From contig NZ_BAAAPK010000001.1 of assembly GCF_039531105.1 (NCBI RefSeq), forward strand, positions 1,674,001-1,738,000: DNA of 64,000 nucleotides, given 5' to 3'. Position 1 is the first letter of the stretch; each line of letters opens with the position of its first letter. This stretch comes from Microbacterium lacus. GTDB taxonomy: Bacteria; Actinomycetota; Actinomycetes; Actinomycetales; Microbacteriaceae. The notes beneath the pieces are model-generated. The model was not told where the DNA came from. It saw nothing but the letters and a program-made list of their open reading frames with translations, and did no database searches. Position numbers and translations under genes: made by a program. Positions 4,145-57,321 of this stretch are shown piece by piece.

Positions 4145-4166
4145 TGTCGGAGGCCCCGCCTACCCT
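4145..4166 (+). promoter_or_regulatory. Candidate PafBC (RecA-NDp type) damage promoter of uvrB
   Basis: TGTCGGAG (4145-4152), an 8-nt spacer GCCCCGCC (4153-4160) and -10 TACCCT (4161-4166) fit the mycobacterial RecA-independent damage promoter TTGTCRGTG-N8-TAnnnT. The -10 ends 6 nt before ATG 4173, implying leaderless uvrB mRNA. The first 18 nt are identical to the block upstream of uvrA. Confidence 0.65.
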
Positions 4167-4172
4167 GGAAGG

Positions 4173-6254
4173 ATGCAGACGACACGATCCGTACGGCCGT
4201 TCGAGGTCGTCAGCGAGTACGTCCCCTCCGGAGATCAGCCGCAGGCGATCGCCGACCTGGCGGCGCGCATCAACGCCGGTGAGACCGACGTCGTGCTTCT
4301 GGGTGCGACCGGAACGGGCAAGTCCGCGACGACCGCCTGGCTCATCGAGCAGGTGCAGCGACCGACCCTCGTCCTCGCCCACAACAAGACCCTGGCGGCC
4401 CAGCTCGCGAACGAGTTCCGCGACCTCATGCCGCACAACGCGGTCGAGTACTTCGTGTCGTATTACGACTACTACCAGCCCGAGGCGTACGTCCCGCAGA
4501 CGGACACCTTCATCGAGAAGGACTCCTCGGTCAATGCCGAAGTCGAGCGACTGCGCCACTCCACCACCAACTCGCTCCTGAGCCGTCGCGACGTCGTCGT
4601 GGTCTCGACCGTGTCGTGCATCTACGGACTCGGTGCGCCGGAGGAGTACCTCCGGGCGATGGTCGCGCTCCAGGTGGGGGAGCGCTACGACCGCGATGCG
4701 CTCATCCGCAAGTTCATCGCGATGCAGTACAACCGCAACGACGTCGACTTCTCCCGCGGCAACTTCCGCGTGCGCGGCGACACGATCGAGATCATCCCCG
4801 TGTACGAGGAGTACGCGATCCGCGTCGAGCTGTTCGGCGACGAGATCGAAGCGCTCTACATGCTGCATCCGCTCACCGGCGACGTGATCCAGAAGCTCGA
4901 TTCCGTCCCGATCTTCCCCGCGTCGCATTACGTCGCGGGCACCGACACCGTTCAGCGCGCGATCGGGACGATCGAGGTCGAGCTCGCCGAGCGGCTCAAG
5001 GAGCTGGAGTCGCAGGGAAAGCTGCTCGAAGCTCAGCGCCTGCGGATGCGCACGACGTTCGACCTCGAGATGCTGCAGCAGCTCGGATTCTGCTCGGGGA
5101 TCGAGAACTACTCGCGCCACCTCGACGGACGTGCGCCGGGCGAGGCGCCGCACTGTCTCCTGGACTTCTTCCCCGACGACTTCCTCGTCGTGATCGACGA
5201 GTCGCACGTGACGGTTCCGCAGATCGGCGCGATGTACGAAGGCGACGCCTCCCGCAAGCGCACGCTCGTCGAGCACGGTTTCCGCCTGCCCAGCGCCATG
5301 GACAACCGCCCGTTGCGGTGGGATGAGTTCAAGGATCGTGTGGGTCAGACCGTCTACCTGTCGGCCACGCCGGGGCGTTACGAGATGGGCATCGCCGATG
5401 GAGTGGTCGAGCAGATCATCCGCCCGACGGGTCTGATCGACCCGCAGATCATCGTCAAGCCGTCCAAGGGACAGATCGACGACCTGCTGGAAGAGATCCG
5501 GGTGCGTGCCGAGCGCGATGAGCGCGTCCTGGTCACCACCCTCACCAAGAAGATGGCCGAGGAGCTCACCGACTTCCTCGGCGAGCACGGCGTGCGTGTG
5601 CGCTACCTCCATTCCGACGTCGACACGCTGCGCCGGGTCGAACTGCTGACCGAGCTCAGATCCGGCGTGTACGACGTGCTGGTCGGCATCAATCTGCTCC
5701 GTGAGGGGCTCGACCTTCCCGAGGTCTCCCTCGTGGCGATCCTGGATGCCGACAAGGAGGGGTTCCTGCGGTCGGGGACCTCGTTGATCCAGACGATCGG
5801 ACGCGCGGCACGAAACGTGTCCGGTGAAGTCCACATGTACGCCGACACCATGACCGACTCGATGCGCGCGGCGATCGAGGAGACCGACCGCCGGCGCGAC
5901 AAGCAGATCGCCTACAACCTCGAGAACGGAATCGACCCGACGCCGCTGCGCAAGAAGATCGCGGACATCACGGACGTGCTGGCGCGCGAAGGCGCGGACA
6001 CCGCCGCGATGATGTCGAAGCGGGATGCCGCGAAGACGAAGTCCGGGAAGGGCAAGTCGCCGACACCGCGCCTGCGACGCGAAGGAATCGCCGCGGAGGG
6101 CGCCGAGCAGCTGGAGGCGACGATCCTCGATCTCTCGAACCAGATGCTCGCCGCCGCCGGCGAGCTCAAGTTCGAGCTGGCCGCACGACTGCGTGATGAG
6201 GTCCAGGACATGAAGAAGGAGCTGCGCGCCATGGAGCGCGCCGGCCACGCCTGA
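4173..6254 (+). CDS. uvrB: Excinuclease ABC subunit B
   Basis: Damage-verification helicase of nucleotide excision repair; it receives lesions from UvrA and recruits UvrC. The product has 693 residues, of usual length. Walker A GATGTGKS lies at 44-51, followed by the DNA-clamping beta-hairpin region [13 protein letters not shown], the Walker B-like VIDESH, the helicase motif QTIGRAARN, and a C-terminal UVR domain (about 640-685) that binds UvrC. ATG 4173 is chosen because it matches the conserved N-terminus and sits 6 nt after a -10. Longer in-frame starts run into the preceding gene. Its promoter resembles the PafBC-controlled damage class. It ends 1 bp from the convergent zinc-ribbon gene. 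Confidence 0.98.
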
Positions 6255-6255
6255 A

Positions 6256-6504
6256 TCACGGACAGTGCATGAGGGGCTTCGGGCCCGACCTGTCGAACGA
6301 GTGAGCCGTCATCGGCTGCCCGCACAGCGGACACGCGCGTTCCGCGCGCTCGGCGACCGTGGGTGGGGGAGTCGTCTCGTAGGGACCGACCGACGCGGGG
6401 CCGGCGAGCGAGATGAGCCGGGCGTTGATCCAGGCGTACCAGCCGCCGGCCTCCCGGACGCGTTCCCGGAGCGGTCGGCGGGGTTCGGCATCCGGCGTGG
6501 GCAT
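6256..6504 (-). CDS. Small zinc-ribbon-like protein divergent from a MarR regulator
   Basis: An 82-residue protein with no function I recognise. The middle reads GGWYAWINARLISLAGPASVG, and the C-terminus carries CPLCGQPM, a histidine and HCP, a likely single zinc site. The ATG at 6504 follows TACACT (6517-6512 on the minus strand) by 7 nt, suggesting leaderless transcription. That -10 lies inside a palindrome shared with the divergent MarR gene, so the MarR protein probably regulates it. The gene ends 1 bp from uvrB. Confidence 0.7.
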   Translation of the reverse strand: MPTPDAEPRRPLRERVREAGGWYAWINARLISLAGPASVGPYETTPPPTVAERAERACPLCGQPMTAHSFDRSGPKPLMHCP

Positions 6505-6510
6505 ATCACT

Positions 6511-6535
6511 TAGTGTACGAATGATTCACGCACTA
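6511..6535. promoter_or_regulatory. Palindromic operator between zinc-ribbon gene and MarR gene
   Basis: A 25-bp interrupted palindrome, TAGTG-N3-GAAT-N-ATTC-N3-CACTA, 18 paired positions centred at 6523. It overlaps the minus-strand -10 (TACACT, 6517-6512) and the first two bases of the plus-strand -10 (TATGCT, 6534-6539). Its position suits a MarR dimer repressing both divergent promoters. Confidence 0.7.
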
Positions 6536-6539
6536 TGCT
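6534..6539 (+). promoter_or_regulatory. -10 element TATGCT of the MarR gene, leaderless
   Basis: TATGCT ends 6 nt before ATG 6546 and abuts the operator palindrome. Confidence 0.65.
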
Positions 6540-6545
6540 AATCGG

Positions 6546-7004
6546 ATGCCGAACTCGTCCACAGCCGCGGAAGACCTGCTCAAACTGGACAACCAGGTGT
6601 GCTTCGCGCTCGTCACCGCCGCGCGCAACGTGGTGTCGATCTACCGGCCGATCCTGGAACCGCTCGGCCTCACACATCCGCAATACCTCGTGATGCTGGC
6701 GCTGTGGGAAGCGGCACCGCGTTCGGTGCGCGATCTCGCGGACGAGCTCGCCCTCGAGTCCGCCACGCTCTCGCCGCTGCTGAAGCGACTCGAGGCGCAA
6801 GGGCTCGTGACGCGCCGGCGCCGTCCTGACGACGAGCGGGCGCTCGACGTCGGTCTGACCGACGCCGGCCGGCGGCTGCGCGATGAGGCACTGGAGGTGC
6901 CGGCGCGCGTCATGGCGGCCGTCGGGGCCGATGCCGACGCGCTCGTGGCCCTCCGTGATGCGCTCGCACCGTGGGCGGGGCATCGTGCGGGCAACGATGC
7001 GTGA
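6546..7004 (+). CDS. MarR-family transcriptional regulator
   Basis: A 152-residue winged-helix regulator. It starts with a dimerisation helix (LKLDNQVCFALVTAARNVVSIYRPIL), as in the OhrR/MarR subgroup, then LTHPQYLVMLALWE, the recognition region SVRDLADELALESATLSPLLKRLEAQGLV, and the wing RRRRPDDERALDVGLTDAGR. A cysteine at about residue 22 (NQVCFA) falls where OhrR proteins carry their peroxide-sensing cysteine, so a thiol-oxidation sensor is plausible. No ohr peroxidase gene is adjacent. The likely targets are itself and the divergent zinc-ribbon gene through the shared palindrome. Transcription appears leaderless. Confidence 0.9.
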   Translation: MPNSSTAAEDLLKLDNQVCFALVTAARNVVSIYRPILEPLGLTHPQYLVMLALWEAAPRSVRDLADELALESATLSPLLKRLEAQGLVTRRRRPDDERALDVGLTDAGRRLRDEALEVPARVMAAVGADADALVALRDALAPWAGHRAGNDA

Positions 7005-7044
7005 ACAATCTCTCATCCCTCTGGATTCGCGTCGCCGCTGACCA

Positions 7045-7087
7045 TAGTCTCGAAGCGGTGCGAGGGTGCACGACCCGAACTCGTACC
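7045..7087 (+). promoter_or_regulatory. Promoter and 5' hairpin of the 5'-nucleotidase gene
   Basis: A possible -10, TAGTCT (7045-7050), is followed by a hairpin at 7057-7087 with arms GGTGCGAG and CTCGTACC (one mismatch). The hairpin would lie at or near the 5' end of the mRNA, 33 nt before the GGAGGA ribosome-binding site. The -35 is weak. Confidence 0.4.
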
Positions 7088-7120
7088 ATCTCCTTCTTCA
7101 TCCCCCATCGGAGGAACGTC

Positions 7121-9478
7121 ATGCGATCAAGGTCACACCCGCGCGGCGCCCGGCGCTTCGCCGCCGCAGCTGCTCTCACCGCCGCGGCACTCGGAGCGAG
7201 TGCTCTCGCCGCGCCCGCCGCTCAGGCCGATCCCACTCAGGTGCAGATCCTGGCCACGAACGACTTCCACGGCCGCATCGCCGCGAACGGCACAGAGGCA
7301 GGCGCCGCGAAGCTCGCGGGCGTGGTGCAGTCGCTGCGCGCGTCCAACCCGAACACGGTCTTCGCCGCCGCCGGCGACCTGATCGGCGCATCGACGTTCG
7401 AGTCGTTCATCCAGAGTGACAAGCCGACGATCGACGCGCTCAACGCGGCAGGCCTCGAGGTCTCGGCGGTGGGCAACCACGAGCTCGATCAGGGCTACGA
7501 CGACCTCGTCAACCGGGTGATGGCGCCCTACGACGCGGTGACGAACCCGTACGGCGGCGCGGAATGGCAGTACATCGCCGCCAATCTGAAGGTGCGCGCG
7601 ACCGGCGATGACGCGGTCCCGGCGACGTGGATCAAGGAATTCGGCGACGTGCAGGTCGGGTTCGTCGGCGCGGTCACCGAAGAGCTGCCCGCACTGGTCA
7701 GTCCTTCCGGCATCGCCGACATCGAGGTGCGCGGCATCGTCGACTCCGTCAACGCCGAGGCCGCTGAACTGGTCAGCGCCGGCGCCGATCTCGTCGTGAT
7801 GCTCGTGCACGAGGGCGCGGCGACGACCGACTGCCAGCAGGGCATCGCCGCCGGGACCACGTGGGGCGAGATCGTCGGCGGGGTCTCGGCCGACGTCGAT
7901 GCGATCGTCTCCGGTCACACCCACCTCGCCTACAACTGCGAGTACCCCGTGCAGCAGTGGGCCAACGAGCAGCGCCCGGTCGTGAACCGACCCGTGGTCT
8001 CCGCGGGTCAGTACGGCACGAACCTGAACCAGCTGCTGTTCACCGTGGACGGCAGCACCGGTGTCGTGAGCGCGAAGACCCAGAACATCATCGCGATCGC
8101 CCCGCAGGCTGCGGCGCCCGATTCGGCGGTGGCCGCTCTCGTCGCCGAGGCGATCGCCGAAGCGGACGTGCTCGGTGCGGAGCCCCTCGGCGAGATCGCC
8201 GGCGGATTCAACCGGGCGAAGCTCGCGAACGGCACGACCGAGAACCGCGGCGGCGAATCGACGCTGGGAAACCTGGTCGCCGAGGTCCAGCAGTGGGCGA
8301 CCGAAGCGCCGGAGTCCGGAGGCGCACAGATCGCGTTCATGAACCCGGGCGGACTCCGTCAGGACATGGTCGGGACGGATGCGGGCACCGGCGCATACCC
8401 GCGGACGCTCACCTACAAGCAGGCTGCGGTCGTGCAGCCGTTCGCGAACACGCTCGTGAACCTGCAGCTGACCGGCGCCCAGATCAAGACCGTGCTCGAG
8501 CAGCAGTGGCAGCGCGATGCCTACAACGCTCTGCCGACCCGGCCGTACCTGCGACTCGGCGCGTCCGAGGGCTTCGAGTACACCTACACCCAGCAGACCG
8601 TGACGGAGACCCAGCGCGACAACCCCACGACGGCGGAGAACGAAGAGGGCCGTACCTACCAGGCTCCGCGGGGCACCGTCACCGGCATGTGGCTGAACGG
8701 CGAGCCGATCGACCCGGCCGCGACCTACTCGGTCACGGTCAACTCGTTCCTCTCCAGCGGCGGCGACAACTTCCGCGAGTTCGCCAACGGCGCGAACCGC
8801 CGCGACACGGGCAAGGTCGATCTCGCTGCGATGGTGGACTACCTCGGGCAGTTCGCCCCGGCCGGCTCGCCGCTGGCGGTCGACTACTCGCAGCGCGCCG
8901 TCGAGGTTGCTCCGGCCGCCGGCTCGCCGGCGTCCTACGCACCGCGGGGAACGGCATCCTTCCAGGTGAAGTCCTGGGCCATGACCGCGCCCGGTGACGC
9001 CAAGGACAGCGAGATCATCGTCAGCTCGGGTGGTCGCGAGCTCGGGCGCTTCCCCGTGGACAACACCGTCGGGACCGCGATCTACGACGATTACGGCACG
9101 GCGTCGATCTCGGTGACGCTGCCGCCGAACGTCCGCCCGGGCGCCGCGGAGCTGACCCTCACGGGCGCGACGACCGGCACCGAGGTCTCCGTGCCGATCA
9201 CGATCGGAGAGAAGTCCACCCTCAGCCTGCGCACGAAGCAGGACGGGCGCGGAGGCGACGTCAGTGCGACCGTGACGGTCCGCACGAAGGGCACCGGCAC
9301 CGGAACGGTGCAGCTGCGCGAGGGCGACGTGGTGATCGGCTCCGCGCAGATCGTCGACGGCTCCGCGACGTTCGATCTGACCGGGCTCTCGGCCGGCCGA
9401 CACCGCATCACCGCGGTGTACTCCGGCGACGCGAGCACGCTCGGCAGCGAGGTCTCCGGAACGGTCCGCGTCCGCTGA
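7121..9478 (+). CDS. Secreted bifunctional 5'-nucleotidase/metallophosphoesterase with Ig-like tail
   Basis: An exported UshA-family enzyme that likely hydrolyses extracellular nucleotides. The 785-residue product starts at ATG 7121 behind GGAGGA. A signal peptide of about 36 residues (Arg-rich start, Ala-rich core, AQA-D cleavage site) is followed by a metallophosphatase domain with NDFHGR, GDLIGAST, GNHELDQGYDD and GHTHLAYN metal-binding motifs. The C-terminal nucleotidase domain contains NPGGLRQDM and FLSSGGDNF. The last 85 residues look like a bacterial Ig-like repeat (AVYSGDAST). There is no LPxTG or membrane anchor, so it may be fully released. A strong terminator follows. Confidence 0.9.
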   Translation: MRSRSHPRGARRFAAAAALTAAALGASALAAPAAQADPTQVQILATNDFHGRIAANGTEAGAAKLAGVVQSLRASNPNTVFAAAGDLIGASTFESFIQSDKPTIDALNAAGLEVSAVGNHELDQGYDDLVNRVMAPYDAVTNPYGGAEWQYIAANLKVRATGDDAVPATWIKEFGDVQVGFVGAVTEELPALVSPSGIADIEVRGIVDSVNAEAAELVSAGADLVVMLVHEGAATTDCQQGIAAGTTWGEIVGGVSADVDAIVSGHTHLAYNCEYPVQQWANEQRPVVNRPVVSAGQYGTNLNQLLFTVDGSTGVVSAKTQNIIAIAPQAAAPDSAVAALVAEAIAEADVLGAEPLGEIAGGFNRAKLANGTTENRGGESTLGNLVAEVQQWATEAPESGGAQIAFMNPGGLRQDMVGTDAGTGAYPRTLTYKQAAVVQPFANTLVNLQLTGAQIKTVLEQQWQRDAYNALPTRPYLRLGASEGFEYTYTQQTVTETQRDNPTTAENEEGRTYQAPRGTVTGMWLNGEPIDPAATYSVTVNSFLSSGGDNFREFANGANRRDTGKVDLAAMVDYLGQFAPAGSPLAVDYSQRAVEVAPAAGSPASYAPRGTASFQVKSWAMTAPGDAKDSEIIVSSGGRELGRFPVDNTVGTAIYDDYGTASISVTLPPNVRPGAAELTLTGATTGTEVSVPITIGEKSTLSLRTKQDGRGGDVSATVTVRTKGTGTGTVQLREGDVVIGSAQIVDGSATFDLTGLSAGRHRITAVYSGDASTLGSEVSGTVRVR

Positions 9479-9499
9479 TTCGCTGACAGCGCACCCTCG

Positions 9500-9535
9500 G
9501 GCGGGGCCTCCGACCTTCGTGTCGGAGGCCCCGCC
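9500..9535 (+). terminator. Perfect 15-bp hairpin terminator of the nucleotidase gene
   Basis: Arms GGCGGGGCCTCCGAC and GTCGGAGGCCCCGCC flank a CTTCGT loop, 21 nt after the stop codon. Its 3' arm is also the upstream box and spacer of the uvrA promoter, and the uvrA -10 starts at the very next base. Confidence 0.8.
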
Positions 9536-9541
9536 TAGACT
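9520..9541 (+). promoter_or_regulatory. Candidate PafBC (RecA-NDp type) damage promoter of uvrA
   Basis: TGTCGGAG (9520-9527), 8-nt spacer (9528-9535) and -10 TAGACT (9536-9541) have the same layout as the uvrB promoter and the RecA-NDp consensus. The -10 ends 6 nt before GTG 9548. Confidence 0.65.
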
Positions 9542-9547
9542 TGTGCG

Positions 9548-12445
9548 GTGCCCATCGTCCCCGTCGCCGCGCCCGGAAACACCAGTGGAAAGCTCAGTGT
9601 CCGGGGCGCCCGTGTCCACAATCTCAAGGATGTCGACCTCGACATCCCCCGCGACTCGCTCGTCGTCTTCACCGGTCTGAGCGGATCCGGAAAGTCCAGC
9701 CTCGCGTTCGACACGATCTTCGCCGAAGGGCAGCGTCGCTACGTCGAGTCGCTCAGCGCCTACGCGCGTCAGTTCCTCGGACAGGTCGATCGCCCCGACG
9801 TGGACTTCATCGAGGGTCTCAGTCCCGCGGTGAGCATCGACCAGAAGTCCACGAACCGCAACCCGCGATCGACCGTCGGAACGATCACCGAGATCTTCGA
9901 CTACATGCGTCTGCTCTGGGCGCGCATCGGGGTACCGCACTGCCCGGAGTGCGGCGAGGTGATCCAGCGGCAGACCGTCCAGCAGATCGCCGATCAGCTC
10001 ATGGAGCTGCCCGAGCGCACCCGTTACCAGATCGTCGCCCCCGTCGTCTCGCAGAAGAAGGGCGAGTTCGTCGACCTGTTCAAGGAGCTGTCGGCGAAGG
10101 GGTACGCGCGTGCCGTGGTCGACGGTGAGCTCATCCAGCTGGCCGAGCCGCCCGTGCTCAAGAAGAGCTACAAGCACGACATCGCGGTGGTCGTGGACCG
10201 TCTCGTGGCCAGCGACGACATCCTGAGCCGGGTGACCGACTCCGTCGAGACCGCCCTGGGCCTCGCCGGCGGCATCGTCCAGGTCAACTTCGTCGATGAG
10301 GAGGGGGACGCCGCCTGGCAGTCGTTCTCCGAGAAACTGGCCTGCCCGAACGGCCACCCTCTGCAGCTCACCGAGATCGAGCCGCGCACCTTCTCGTTCA
10401 ACGCGCCGTTCGGCGCGTGCCCGACGTGTTCCGGTCTCGGCACCCGCATGTCCGTGGACGTCGACCTCATGCTCGGCGACGAGGACCTCTCCATCCGCGA
10501 AGGCGTCCTCATCCCGTGGACCACGCAGGGCAAAGGTCTCTTCCAGTACTACGAACGCCTTCTCGAGGGACTCGCGTCCGATCTGAACTTCTCACTGGAC
10601 ACGCCGTGGCGCGACCTGCGCGTCGACGTGCAGGATGCCGTGCTCCGCGGTGAGAACTACAAGGTGACCGTCAAGTGGAAGAACCGCTACGGCCGCGAGA
10701 TGCGCTATTCGTCGGGCTTCGAAGGTGTCGTGCCGTACATCGAGCGGCAGTACATCCAGGCCGACTCCGACTCGCAGCGCCAGCGGTGGTCCGAGTACCT
10801 GCGCGAAGTGCCGTGCCTGGCGTGCAACGGCGACCGACTCAAGCCCGAAGTGCTCGCCGTCCTGGTCCACGGCCACTCCATCGCGGATGCCGCACGCCTG
10901 AGCCTCGCGGATGCCCAGGAGTACTTCGACAAACTCGAGCTCACTCCGCGCGAGGCGAAGATCGCCGCGCAGGTCCTGCGTGAGATCCGCGCGCGCCTGA
11001 ACTTCCTCCTGCAGGTGGGGCTGAACTATCTGAGCCTCAGCCGCTCGGCCGGGTCTCTCTCCGGCGGCGAGGCGCAGCGCATCCGTCTGGCCACGCAGAT
11101 CGGCTCCGGACTCACCGGCGTGCTCTACGTGCTGGATGAGCCGTCGATCGGCCTGCACCAGAGGGACAACCGCCGGCTCATCGAGACGCTGCTCACCCTG
11201 CGCGACCTCGGCAACACGCTCATCGTCGTCGAGCACGACGAGGAGACGATCCACGCGGCCGACTGGGTCGTGGACATCGGACCACGCGCGGGCGTCGACG
11301 GCGGTCACGTGGTGCACTCCGGTCCGCTCGCCGAACTCCTCACGGACAGCGAGTCGATCACGGGCGACTATCTGGCCGGCCGACGGTCGATCCCGACGCC
11401 GAAGAAGCGACGTCGCATCGACAAGAAGCGAATGATCACGGTCGTCGGGGCGCGCGAGAACAACCTGCGCAACGTCACGGTCGACTTCCCGCTCGGCGTC
11501 ATGACGGCGGTGACCGGGGTCAGCGGCTCGGGCAAATCGTCGCTCGTGAACGGCATCCTGTACGAAGTCCTCGCCACGCGTCTGAACGGCGCGCGTCGCA
11601 TCGCGGGCAAGCACACCCGCGTGACGGGCCTGGACAACCTCGACAAGGTCGTCCACGTCGATCAGGCGCCGATCGGCCGTACGCCGCGCTCGAATCCGGC
11701 GACATACACCGGCGTGTTCGATCGGGTGCGGACCCTGTTCAGCGAGACACCCGAGGCGAAGGCACGCGGCTACCAGCCCGGGCGCTTCAGCTTCAACGTC
11801 AAGGGCGGGCGCTGCGAGGCGTGCTCGGGTGACGGCACGATCAAGATCGAGATGAACTTCCTGCCCGATGTGTACGTCGACTGCGAGGTGTGCCACGGCA
11901 AGCGATACAACCGCGACACGCTGTCGGTGCACTACAAGGGCAAGAACATCGCCGAAGTGCTCGAGATGCCGATCGCCGAGGCGGCGGAGTTCTTCGAGCC
12001 GATCCAGGCGATCCACCGGTATCTGAAGACGCTCGTGGACGTGGGCCTCGGCTACGTCCGGCTCGGCCAGTCGGCGACGACGCTCAGCGGCGGCGAGGCG
12101 CAGCGCGTGAAGCTCGCGACCGAGCTCCAGCGCCGCAGTAACGGCCGCAGCATCTACGTCCTCGACGAGCCGACGACCGGCTTGCACTTCGAAGACGTCG
12201 CCCGGCTGCTCGAGGTTCTCGGCAGCCTGGTCGAGAAGGGCAACACGGTGATCGTGATCGAGCACAACCTCGACGTGATCAAGTCCTCCGACTGGGTGAT
12301 CGACCTCGGACCGGAGGGGGGCTCCGGCGGCGGGCAGATCGTGGCGACCGGCACGCCCGAGCAGGTCGCGCGGGTCGAGGGCAGCCACACCGGCGCGTTC
12401 CTGGCGGAGGTGCTCGGCCTGTCTGCGGTGCGCAAGGCCGGGTGA
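9548..12445 (+). CDS. uvrA: Excinuclease ABC subunit A
   Basis: ABC-type damage sensor of nucleotide excision repair that loads UvrB. The product has 965 residues, of usual length, with two nucleotide-binding modules. The first has Walker [10 protein letters not shown] (about 36-44) and signature [13 protein letters not shown]; the second has GVSGSGKSS (about 657-665) and [13 protein letters not shown]. Zinc-binding cysteines are seen in CPECGEV, CLACNGD and CEACSGDG...CEVCHGK. GTG 9548 matches the start expected from the -10 at 9536-9541. uvrC follows after 6 bp, so both are probably co-transcribed from the damage-type promoter. Confidence 0.98.
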
Positions 12446-12451
12446 TCCGGG

Positions 12452-14335
12452 GTGGCCAAGACGGCGCGACCGACGGTCGCGTACAAACCGCGCCCAGGTG
12501 AGATCCCGACCAATCCCGGGGTGTACCGGTTCCGGGACGCCTCGGGCCGGGTGCTCTACGTCGGCAAGGCGAAGAACCTGCGCGCGCGGCTGTCGAACTA
12601 CTTCGCGCCGCTGCGGACGCTGCACGAGCGCACGCGGCGGATGGTCACGAGCGCGGCATCCGTCGAGTGGACGGTCGTGGCCAGCGACGTGGACTCCCTG
12701 CAGCTGGAGTACATGTGGATCAAGGAGTTCGATCCGCCGTTCAACGTCCGCTACCGCGACGACAAGTCGTACCCGTTCATGGCGATCACGCTCGCCGACG
12801 AGGCTCCCCGCGTGATCGTGACACGCAACCGGCGCATTCCCGGTGCGAAGTACTTCGGCCCGTACCCCAAGGTGTGGGCGGTGCACGACACGATCGATCT
12901 GATGATCAAGGTCTTCCCGATCCGCACGTGCAGCGACGCGTCGTACAAGAAGGCGATGGCGACGGGGCGGCCCTGCTTCCCCGGGCAGATCGGCCGCTGC
13001 GGCGGCCCGTGCTCGATGAAGGTCACGATCGAGGAGCATCGCGCGATCGTCGACGACTTCGTCGCGTTCATGGCCGGCGGCGATCAGCGCTTCTCGCGGG
13101 AGCTCAACGCCCGCATGCGCGAGGCGTCCGCCGCGATGGACTACGAAGCGGCAGCCGTGTACCGGGACCGGCTCCAGGCGATCGACGCCGTACTCAACAA
13201 GAGCGCGCTCGTGCTGTCCGAGGACACGGATGCCGACCTCTTCGGCATCGCGGAGGACGAGCTCAGCGCCGCCGTGCAGCAGTTCGTGATCCGCGGCGGC
13301 CGCGTCCGCGGTGTGCGCGCGACCACGATCGACAAGGAGATCGACATCGACGGGGCCGATCTCGTCGATCAGGTGGTCCAGCGCGCGTACGGGGATGCCG
13401 CCGCCGCCGACATCCCGCGCCAGGTCCTCGTCCCCGCACTGCCCGAGGACGCGGCCGAACTCGAGATGTGGCTGCGCGAGCGACGCGGCAAGCAGGTGAG
13501 CATCCAGGTCGCGCAGCGGGGTCGCAAGGCGGAGCTGCTCAAGACGGCGAACCTGAACGCCCAGCAGGCGCTCATCCTGCACAAGACCCGACGGACGAGT
13601 GACTACGTCGCCCGCACGCAGGCGCTCACGGACCTGCAGGAGGCCCTCGGACTCAGCGAAGCGCCGCTGCGCATCGAGTGCTACGACGTCTCCCACCTCG
13701 GCGGCACGAATGTGGTCGCCTCCATGGTCGTGTTCGAGGACGGCCTGCCGCGCAAGGACCAGTACCGAAACTTCGGCGTGAGCGAGACGACGGACGACAC
13801 CGACTCGCTGTACCAGGTGCTGATCCGGCGACTGGCGTACCTGGACCGCCCGGAGCCGGTGGAGGATCCGGATTCCACCGCGCCCAAACGGCCCCGCTTC
13901 GCCTACCCGCCGCAGCTCCTCGTCGTCGACGGCGGCAAGCCGCAGGTCGAGGCGGCCGCGCGCGCTCTCGCGGATGCCGGGCACGAGGAGATCGCGCTGT
14001 GCGGGATCGCCAAGCGACTCGAGGAGGTGTGGCTGCCGGGGGAGGAGTATCCGGTCATCCTCCCGCGCACGAGCGAGGCGCTGTACCTGCTGCAGAGACT
14101 GCGCGACGAGGCGCACCGTTTCGCGATCACCCACCAGCGCCGGCGCCGGCGCCGCGACATCCAGAGCGTGCTGGCGGAGGTGCCCGGACTCGGTGAGGCG
14201 CGCATCAAGGCGCTGCTGCGGCACTTCGGTTCCGTCGCGGCACTCAAGCAGGCCACGCCCGAGGAGATCACCGAGTTACCCGGCGTCGGGCCGAAGCTCG
14301 CGGCTGCCATCCATGCCCACCTGGCGAGTGGGTAG
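12452..14335 (+). CDS. uvrC: Excinuclease ABC subunit C
   Basis: Dual-incision nuclease of nucleotide excision repair, cutting 3' and then 5' of the lesion in the UvrB-DNA complex. The 627-residue product starts at a GTG 6 bp after uvrA. Domains in order: GIY-YIG nuclease ([20 protein letters not shown], about 16-95), a cysteine cluster ([20 protein letters not shown], with GRCGGPC after it), the UVR domain near 200-235, the RNase H-like nuclease with [10 protein letters not shown] and [10 protein letters not shown], and C-terminal helix-hairpin-helices ([13 protein letters not shown]). It forms an operon with uvrA. Confidence 0.97.
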
Positions 14336-52177: not shown

Positions 52178-52183
52178 AACCTA
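52178..52183 (-). promoter_or_regulatory. -10 element TAGGTT of the hydrolase gene, leaderless
   Basis: Ends 6 nt before ATG 52171 on the minus strand. Confidence 0.55.
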
Positions 52184-52203
52184 CTCCCGTCATCCGACAT
52201 CGC

Positions 52204-56590: not shown

Positions 56591-57280
56591 TCAGCGGACG
56601 GGCCACGACCCGTCCAGGTGCGTTTCCGGGTCAAGTCGCCCGATCCTCACGAAGTACTCCGTGAGGCTGTCGGCCTGTGCGCGGGCCCAGCCGATCTGGT
56701 GGGTGTGCAGAACGTCGGCGCGCGCAGGAAGGAGCTCGGCGAACCGACGCGCCAGCGCCTGCGCGAGGCGTCCCGCGGCGACGGCGTCCGCGGACGCGTC
56801 GTGCGCCCCGTCCAGGGGCACTGCGTAATGCGCGGCGACGGCGGCCAGCGTCCGCTTGCCGCGCCGATATCGGTCGTAGGCCTTGTCGATCACGAGGGGG
56901 TCGATCACCGGGGAGGGATCCTCCAGAGGTGCGATCGCGTGCCGGCGGGCTTCGTGCGCGAGCAGGGAGAAGTCATAGGACGCGTTGTACGCCACGACGG
57001 GGATGCCGGCGTCCAGCAAGGCGCGGAGCGTCTCGGCGACCTGCTCCACCACTTCCTCGGCGGGAGCTCCGACCGCCCGTGCGTGCGCCGTCGTGATGCC
57101 GTGCACCGCGGTGGCGGCGGCCGGGATCTCGATTCCGGGGTCGGCGATCCAGTCGCGCGCCAGGATCGCGGTGCCGTCCGCGTCGAGCAGGCCGACGTGC
57201 GCCGTGACGATGCGATCGTGCTCCACATCGACTCCGGTCGTTTCGAGGTCGAAGACTCCGATCACGCGCGTCCATTCCAT
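56591..57280 (-). CDS. DEDD 3'-5' exonuclease (DNA polymerase III epsilon-like)
   Basis: A 229-residue exonuclease-fold protein. The metal-binding motifs are GVFDLETTGVDVEHDRIV (motif I), YNASYDFSLLAHEA (motif II) and AHDASADAVAAGRLA (motif III, with His and Asp). It is shorter than full proofreading subunits and may act in repair or RNA trimming. ATG 57280 lies 7 nt after TACCGT (57293-57288, minus), so transcription looks leaderless. A large palindrome lies just upstream. Confidence 0.9.
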   Translation of the reverse strand: MEWTRVIGVFDLETTGVDVEHDRIVTAHVGLLDADGTAILARDWIADPGIEIPAAATAVHGITTAHARAVGAPAEEVVEQVAETLRALLDAGIPVVAYNASYDFSLLAHEARRHAIAPLEDPSPVIDPLVIDKAYDRYRRGKRTLAAVAAHYAVPLDGAHDASADAVAAGRLAQALARRFAELLPARADVLHTHQIGWARAQADSLTEYFVRIGRLDPETHLDGSWPVR

Positions 57281-57287
57281 GCTCGTG

Positions 57288-57293
57288 ACGGTA
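57288..57293 (-). promoter_or_regulatory. -10 element TACCGT of the exonuclease gene, leaderless
   Basis: Ends 7 nt before ATG 57280 on the minus strand. Confidence 0.5.
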
Positions 57294-57321
57294 TGCGCCA
57301 CCACCGACACCGGCGTGAAGC

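Follow-up and report, generated by a model that had tools for sequence, protein, structure and literature searches.

Sigma adaptation by PafBC, activated by single-stranded DNA, is established in Mycobacterium smegmatis (PMC11804915). The structure of PafBC and the RecA-NDp promoter have been described (PMC6789036), the promoter consensus being tTGTCRgtg-8nt-TannnT (PMC5656591). In a pafBC mutant the uvrB mRNA is 37% lower (PMC5656591), and the members of the PafBC regulon include UvrABC, RecA, and other repair proteins (PMC8223512). The mycobacterial uvrA and uvrC genes are additionally under SOS control, and RecA-NDp promoters occur in other Actinobacteria as well (PMC8223512). M. smegmatis has many leaderless mRNAs (PMC5741613).

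Here we analyze a 64-kb stretch of the Microbacterium lacus genome (C1:1674001-1738000; hereafter the window), in which uvrB and uvrA very probably share, judging from the DNA, the damage-triggered PafBC switch known from mycobacteria. Since a PafBC regulon with UvrABC is already known from Mycobacterium, this kind of control is not new. Less expected are the mostly leaderless geometry and the persistence of PafBC and its regulon where a Pup ligase/Dop was not found.

Promoter elements of uvrB and uvrA

The window contains three exact matches to the general motif TGTCRGNG-N8-TANNNT. The PafBC-type promoter of uvrB (4145..4166, plus strand) consists of the box TGTCGGAG (4145-4152), an 8-nt spacer, and the -10 element TACCCT (4161-4166); the ATG of uvrB (4173..6254, plus strand; UvrB by Pfam) follows 6 nt past the -10, and the gene is predicted to be leaderless. 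The promoter of uvrA (9520..9541, plus strand) has the same box (9520-9527), again an 8-nt spacer, and the -10 element TAGACT (9536-9541), 6 nt before the GTG of uvrA (9548..12445, plus strand; UvrA by Pfam), which is likewise predicted to be leaderless. The third exact site (57288..57309, minus strand) lies 7 nt ahead of the start of a DnaQ-like exonuclease gene (56591..57280, minus strand), whose product scores above the cut-off of NF005927, a DNA polymerase III subunit epsilon subfamily model.

The initial annotation had reported that the 18-mer TGTCGGAGGCCCCGCCTA stands twice on the plus strand (4145-4162 and 9520-9537), that each -10 ends 6 nt before the start codon, and that the layout at both genes fits the RecA-NDp motif TTGTCRGTG-N8-TAnnnT. 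The coordinates and distances are exact, and both sites have a TGTCRG.G box, an 8-nt spacer, and a TANNNT -10. It had also placed uvrC 6 bp behind uvrA, and the gap is confirmed: 6 nt separate the uvrA stop (12445) from the first possible uvrC start (uvrC, 12452..14335, plus strand; UvrC by Pfam), and the two genes would share a transcript. Its remark that the consensus T before the final G is replaced by A is correct for these two sites, and in the M. lacus genome this position is free (6 T, 6 C, 5 A, and 3 G in the 20 sites that we assign to the regulon below). The other weak consensus position is not matched either: the base before TGTC is A at uvrB and G at uvrA, and the leading T of the consensus is present in 1 of the 20 sites.

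The predicted regulon and PafBC in M. lacus

The M. lacus genome (3.54 Mb, 8 contigs) holds 28 exact sites of TGTCRGNG-N8-TANNNT, while the reversed pattern gives 0. Because reversal changes the dinucleotides, this control is weak, and we therefore also modeled the window as a first-order Markov chain, which predicts about 2.3 sites per genome. The R position is G in 28/28 sites, i.e., the box is always TGTCGG. At 18 of the 28 sites, an open frame of at least 130 codons starts 6 or 7 nt after the -10, and 11 of these 18 genes belong to repair or replication by domain matches: uvrA, uvrB, mfd, radA, xth, ligA, sbcD, dnaE, dnaX, a dnaQ-like gene, and a UvrD-like gene. Enrichment near repair genes, which had been named as a genome-wide check in the initial annotation, is thus found. 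The remaining seven encode an OmdA/YdeI-type protein, FtsK, YjbR, three DUF222 proteins (one with HNH, one just under the cut-off), and a protein without an assigned family. The 18 names come from domain matches and N-termini, several of the proteins being truncated where the locus ends; radA is named by its domains, mfd is partial and under the full-length cut-off, and YjbR is under the cut-off.

Two further sites lie farther from their genes: that of recA is 107 nt from the start, and that of a TM0106-type RecB-like nuclease is 21 nt from it. We judged the other eight (L004, L014, L019, L020, L021, L024, L025, L026) not to belong to the regulon. In seven of them no gene starts at 6-7 nt; at L020 a GTG at 7 nt opens a frame of only 27 amino acids, owing to which the letter pattern itself counts 19 leaderless sites against the 18 given here. 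A relaxed pattern with 5-8 nt to the start yields 22 matches, all of them at 6 or 7 nt (control: 1). It takes in L020 and adds a RecQ-like helicase, an SRPBCC-like protein, and an alpha/beta-hydrolase-like protein, as read from their translations. A near-match in the window, TGTCGGAT-N8-TAGGTT (52178-52199, minus strand), lies 6 nt before an alpha/beta-hydrolase-like gene and is a possible extra member of the regulon.

Is the leaderless geometry peculiar to these sites? By a heuristic gene list, TANNNT stands 6-7 nt before an in-frame RTG in 13 of 48 window genes, uvrA and uvrB included. The geometry is found at 18/20 of the judged regulon sites and in 11/46 other window genes (Fisher, 1e-6), a test that is indicative because the regulon set was picked partly by plausibility. 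On the motif matches, uvrA and uvrB would share a regulon of about 20 sites with mfd, radA, xth, ligA, sbcD, recA, several replication genes, and genes for DUF222 proteins.

Three WYL matches were found in the genome, two of them in adjacent genes 21 kb past the window (C1:1759282-1761245). The first, PafB (334 amino acids), contains WYL and WCX; the second, PafC (320 amino acids), contains HTH_PafC (98.8 bits), WYL, and WCX. No match to an HTH model was found in PafB; its N-terminal part still aligns with the solved PafB chains. The gene order is pafB-pafC-tatA-tatC-helicase (DSHCT), which mycobacteria presumably share, with FKBP- and TrmI-like genes upstream of pafB. The customary, non-defining neighbor pafA was not found: PF03136 has no match in the M. 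lacus genome. For both proteins the best solved relative is Arthrobacter PafBC (6sj9); next come chains from 7p5x and 9fnd, which we take to be M. smegmatis PafBC-RNA polymerase complexes. M. lacus PafB shares the segment MFERDK..L..(L/F)G with all three chains in the alignment. Two of the WYL residues that PMC11804915 names for M. smegmatis (R181 and R208) are conserved in M. lacus PafB, while R204 is replaced by V and Y196 by H (alignment read and residues counted by eye). PafB of M. lacus has WHV where that of M. smegmatis has WYL, which we count against control by PafBC.

In line with the initial annotation, whose reading is supported, we hold with high confidence that both elements are PafBC-dependent RecA-NDp (P1) promoters of uvrB and uvrA, within this regulon of about 20 sites. 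The reading draws on the motif, its geometry, the regulon content, the tandem pafB-pafC genes, and the conservation and co-variation with PafC described below. As in M. smegmatis, single-stranded DNA arising from damage would activate PafBC, which would then sit between domain 4 of sigma-A and the promoter -26 box, a placement described for M. smegmatis and assumed here for M. lacus. The housekeeping RNA polymerase would thereby be able to use such promoters. For both uvrB and uvrA, the predicted start point of transcription is the first base of the start codon, so that the mRNAs would be leaderless; transcription from uvrA would run on into uvrC.

Conservation of the sites and co-variation with PafC

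We examined the upstream DNA of the best 80 of 587 uvrB loci, of which 78 were readable (L064 and L067 excluded); the best named UvrB match is that of Microbacterium commune (Microbacteriaceae; 91%). A strict site is present in 17/29 loci of L055-L085, with the start at 6-7 nt in 17/17, and in 0/49 loci of L086-L134, which include actinobacterial metagenome-assembled genomes (MAGs) and two loci labeled Bifidobacterium breve. PafB gave no match in 3 of the 30 genomes searched (two Bifidobacterium, one Mobiluncus; L076 was outside this search), and all three are without a uvrB site. Counting against PafBC control, nine of the 12 site-less loci in L055-L085 come from genomes with a PafB match: Saccharothrix, Hamadaea, four MAGs, S. 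oceani (match in pieces), and Rothia and Corynebacterium (both weak). Some site-less loci with PafB keep a related layout, e.g., TGTCATAC-N8-TAGGTT.

Within the family, we took 60 genera of Microbacteriaceae, with 58 uvrB and 58 uvrA upstream regions usable (left out: the uvrB of G444, at a contig edge; G420, with no full UvrB/UvrA match; and the uvrA of G430, L227, with no N-terminal match). The strict site is found in 38/58 genera at uvrB and in 31/58 at uvrA, compared to 0.04 sites per 116 shuffled upstream regions. Conservation of both upstream regions in relatives, a further check that had been proposed, therefore held. An in-frame start lies 6-7 nt from the strict site in 38 cases at uvrB and in 29 at uvrA (67/69 overall). 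The absence of the strict site from 20/58 genera at uvrB and from 27/58 at uvrA counts against PafBC control; among these strict-less genera, a TGTC-N12-TANNNT variant is present at uvrB in seven and at uvrA in one. In a further nine genera (L176, L190, L192, L193, L224, L228, L231, L232, L236) the spacer at uvrA is 7 nt rather than 8 nt, which is a naturally occurring variation in promoter geometry.

Does the motif follow its presumed regulator? In a phylum panel of 246 genomes, 6-35 leaderless motifs occur in each of the 25 genomes that belong to the same class or are closer still, against 0-1 for the reversed control. Of the remaining 221, 80 contain one motif or more, usually one or two, with up to 10 in family f15. 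All 25 same-class genomes also have PafB matches, so this panel offers no negative at class level; one genome outside the class, G002, is an exception with 4 motifs and no PafB match. In an order panel of 129 genomes, there are 1302 motifs (reversed control, 9), and at least three motifs are found in 102/107 genomes with strong PafC against 6/22 with weak PafC or none (Fisher, 1e-11). PafC is called strong here at E < 1e-15, and within the family at E < 1e-25, both cut-offs having been set after the data were seen. The exceptions are six genomes with weak or no PafC and at least three motifs (G276, G343, G356, G286, G299, G387, the last three in 270-1060 contigs); conversely, fewer than three motifs are found in five genomes whose PafC is strong (G283, G316, G338, G349, G377). 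PafC was found in 58/60 family genera. For 59 of the genera (G420 missing), a uvrB site, strict or layout variant, is present in 43/47 with strong PafC against 2/12 with weaker PafC or none, one of the four negative strong-PafC genera being unassessed; for uvrA sites, strict or with the 7-nt spacer, the numbers are 34/47 and 4/12 (Fisher, 0.018). The motif thus tends to be scarce where PafC is absent, a trend with exceptions that is correlational and partly confounded by phylogeny.

The Pup ligase/Dop family (PF03136) has no match in 9/9 own-family genomes of the order panel, M. lacus included, and matches in 118/120 of the other genomes; the absence rests on this one Pfam model and on nine genomes from three genera. 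At the M. lacus pafBC locus (L054:6355-14950), PafBC is kept while PF03136 was found neither in this genome nor in the eight further family genomes. Family f65 shows the reverse: a Pup ligase in 8/10 genomes, no or weak PafC in 10/10, and 0-2 motifs. Taken together, the patterns of f65 and of the Microbacteriaceae indicate that the motif follows PafC rather than Pup.

This distribution bears on another explanation, namely that we are looking at ordinary leaderless sigma-70-type promoters whose TGTCGG box is read by some other regulator such as ClgR. A study cited in PMC5656591 has ClgR recognizing the P1 region in M. smegmatis, and leaderless -10 elements are common in the window, as the 11/46 other genes with this geometry show. 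However, the motif tends to go with PafC, f65 with its poor PafC is nearly devoid of it, and few family genera whose PafC is weak or missing have a uvrB site. We therefore consider a ClgR-type reading improbable.

The inverted repeat, LexA, and known systems

A 15-bp perfect inverted repeat (9500..9535, plus strand; arms 9500-9514 and 9521-9535) overlaps the uvrA promoter, its right arm lying within the box and spacer. The 60-nt fold reaches -45 kcal/mol (z, -6.9), and the repeat may in addition terminate transcription of the gene before it (6971-9478), in which case terminator and promoter would overlap. It is very unlikely that the repeated 18-mer is nothing but such a hairpin or terminator element, or a local duplication, with no regulatory role. 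The uvrA copy is indeed an arm of the hairpin behind the upstream gene, and GGAGGCCCCGCC occurs in the window in both promoter copies and in the other arm of the hairpin, nowhere else. But no inverted arm of at least 8 nt was reported at the uvrB site, the next longest arm is 9 nt (the script being limited to strict sites in L135-L194), and box, spacing, and -10 recur in relatives despite divergent spacers, by which the hairpin reading is largely refuted.

The same comparison corrects the weight that the initial annotation had given to the 18-nt identity. With three or fewer mismatches allowed, the 18-mer has three matches in the window (shuffles, mean 0.11), the sole further one being the minus-strand arm at 9498-9515. 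Because the 8-nt spacer varies among the 28 M. lacus sites and in relatives, we rejected the whole identity as a signal: it was overstated, is incidental, and at uvrA is tied to the hairpin.

That LexA controls uvrA and uvrB, with the PafBC-like site irrelevant, is barely credible: some family genera do have LexA-like boxes at these genes and a box with 2 mismatches lies at 4189, but in the 64-kb window we found no LexA-type box with one mismatch or less near uvrA or uvrB, as scored against an actinobacterial SOS-box consensus. The box at 4189, just inside the uvrB coding sequence, we judged to be due to chance; none of the other 57 uvrB loci has it as its reported match. The claim that the two genes are outside LexA was overstated too, as it may not be true of all genera in the family. 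LexA-like boxes are found at uvrB in L213 (perfect) and L218 and at uvrA in L242, L243, L167, and L169 (one mismatch each). Several SOS-like matches about 70-170 nt upstream of uvrA in relatives look like sequence coding for the C-terminus of a UvrB encoded just before, so we rely on the promoter-proximal boxes. Three genera have a LexA-like box and no PafBC site (G441 at both genes, G451 at uvrB, G437 at uvrA), and PafC matches are weaker in all three. The boxes concerned (L213 and L218 at uvrB, L242 and L243 at uvrA) suggest a swap of regulator from PafBC to LexA; L167 and L169, with strong PafC, fit a simple swap poorly. In M. lacus itself, LexA-like boxes with 1-2 mismatches lie near five of the motif sites (L009, L014, L026, L028, L031), among them the sites of recA and of two DUF222 genes, where dual control is possible.

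Returning to PafBC control, we lean toward the view that the family has a PafBC response without pupylation: the Pup ligase/Dop would have been lost, PafBC would have been kept together with an intact, mostly leaderless regulon, and the response would have to be shut off differently. Pup and PafBC would then be separated both ways, given f65, and uvrA or uvrB looks rewired to LexA in the three genera with divergent PafC. The open literature, outside of which most subscription papers lie, yielded nothing on PafBC in Microbacterium, on pupylation in Microbacteriaceae, or on pafB with gene loss. How is the response shut off if pupylation cannot remove the induced proteins? A natural PafBC without Pup ligase/Dop raises this question. 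In addition, the LexA-independent damage response, studied mainly in mycobacteria, would extend to another large actinobacterial family. The predicted gene list spans both branches of excision repair (uvrA-uvrC, uvrB, mfd), and, given the near-fixed 6-7 nt geometry, it can be tested directly whether damage-induced repair genes are translated from leaderless mRNAs.

Compared to actinobacterial LexA SOS boxes, the M. lacus sites serve the same kind of target gene, with no box of one mismatch or less at uvrA or uvrB. The Streptomyces RecA-NDp promoters (recA and SCO6735, the latter UV-inducible; PMC5087735) are of the same promoter class outside mycobacteria and have a different target gene. The PafBC regulon of M. 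smegmatis and M. tuberculosis is alike in the tTGTCRgtg-8nt-TannnT layout and in its UvrABC targets. In contrast to the mycobacterial consensus, M. lacus nearly always lacks the leading T, leaves the second T free, and always has TGTCGG as its box. New beyond this known system would be the predicted regulon list, the near-fixed leaderless geometry, the co-variation with PafC, and the apparent independence from pupylation.
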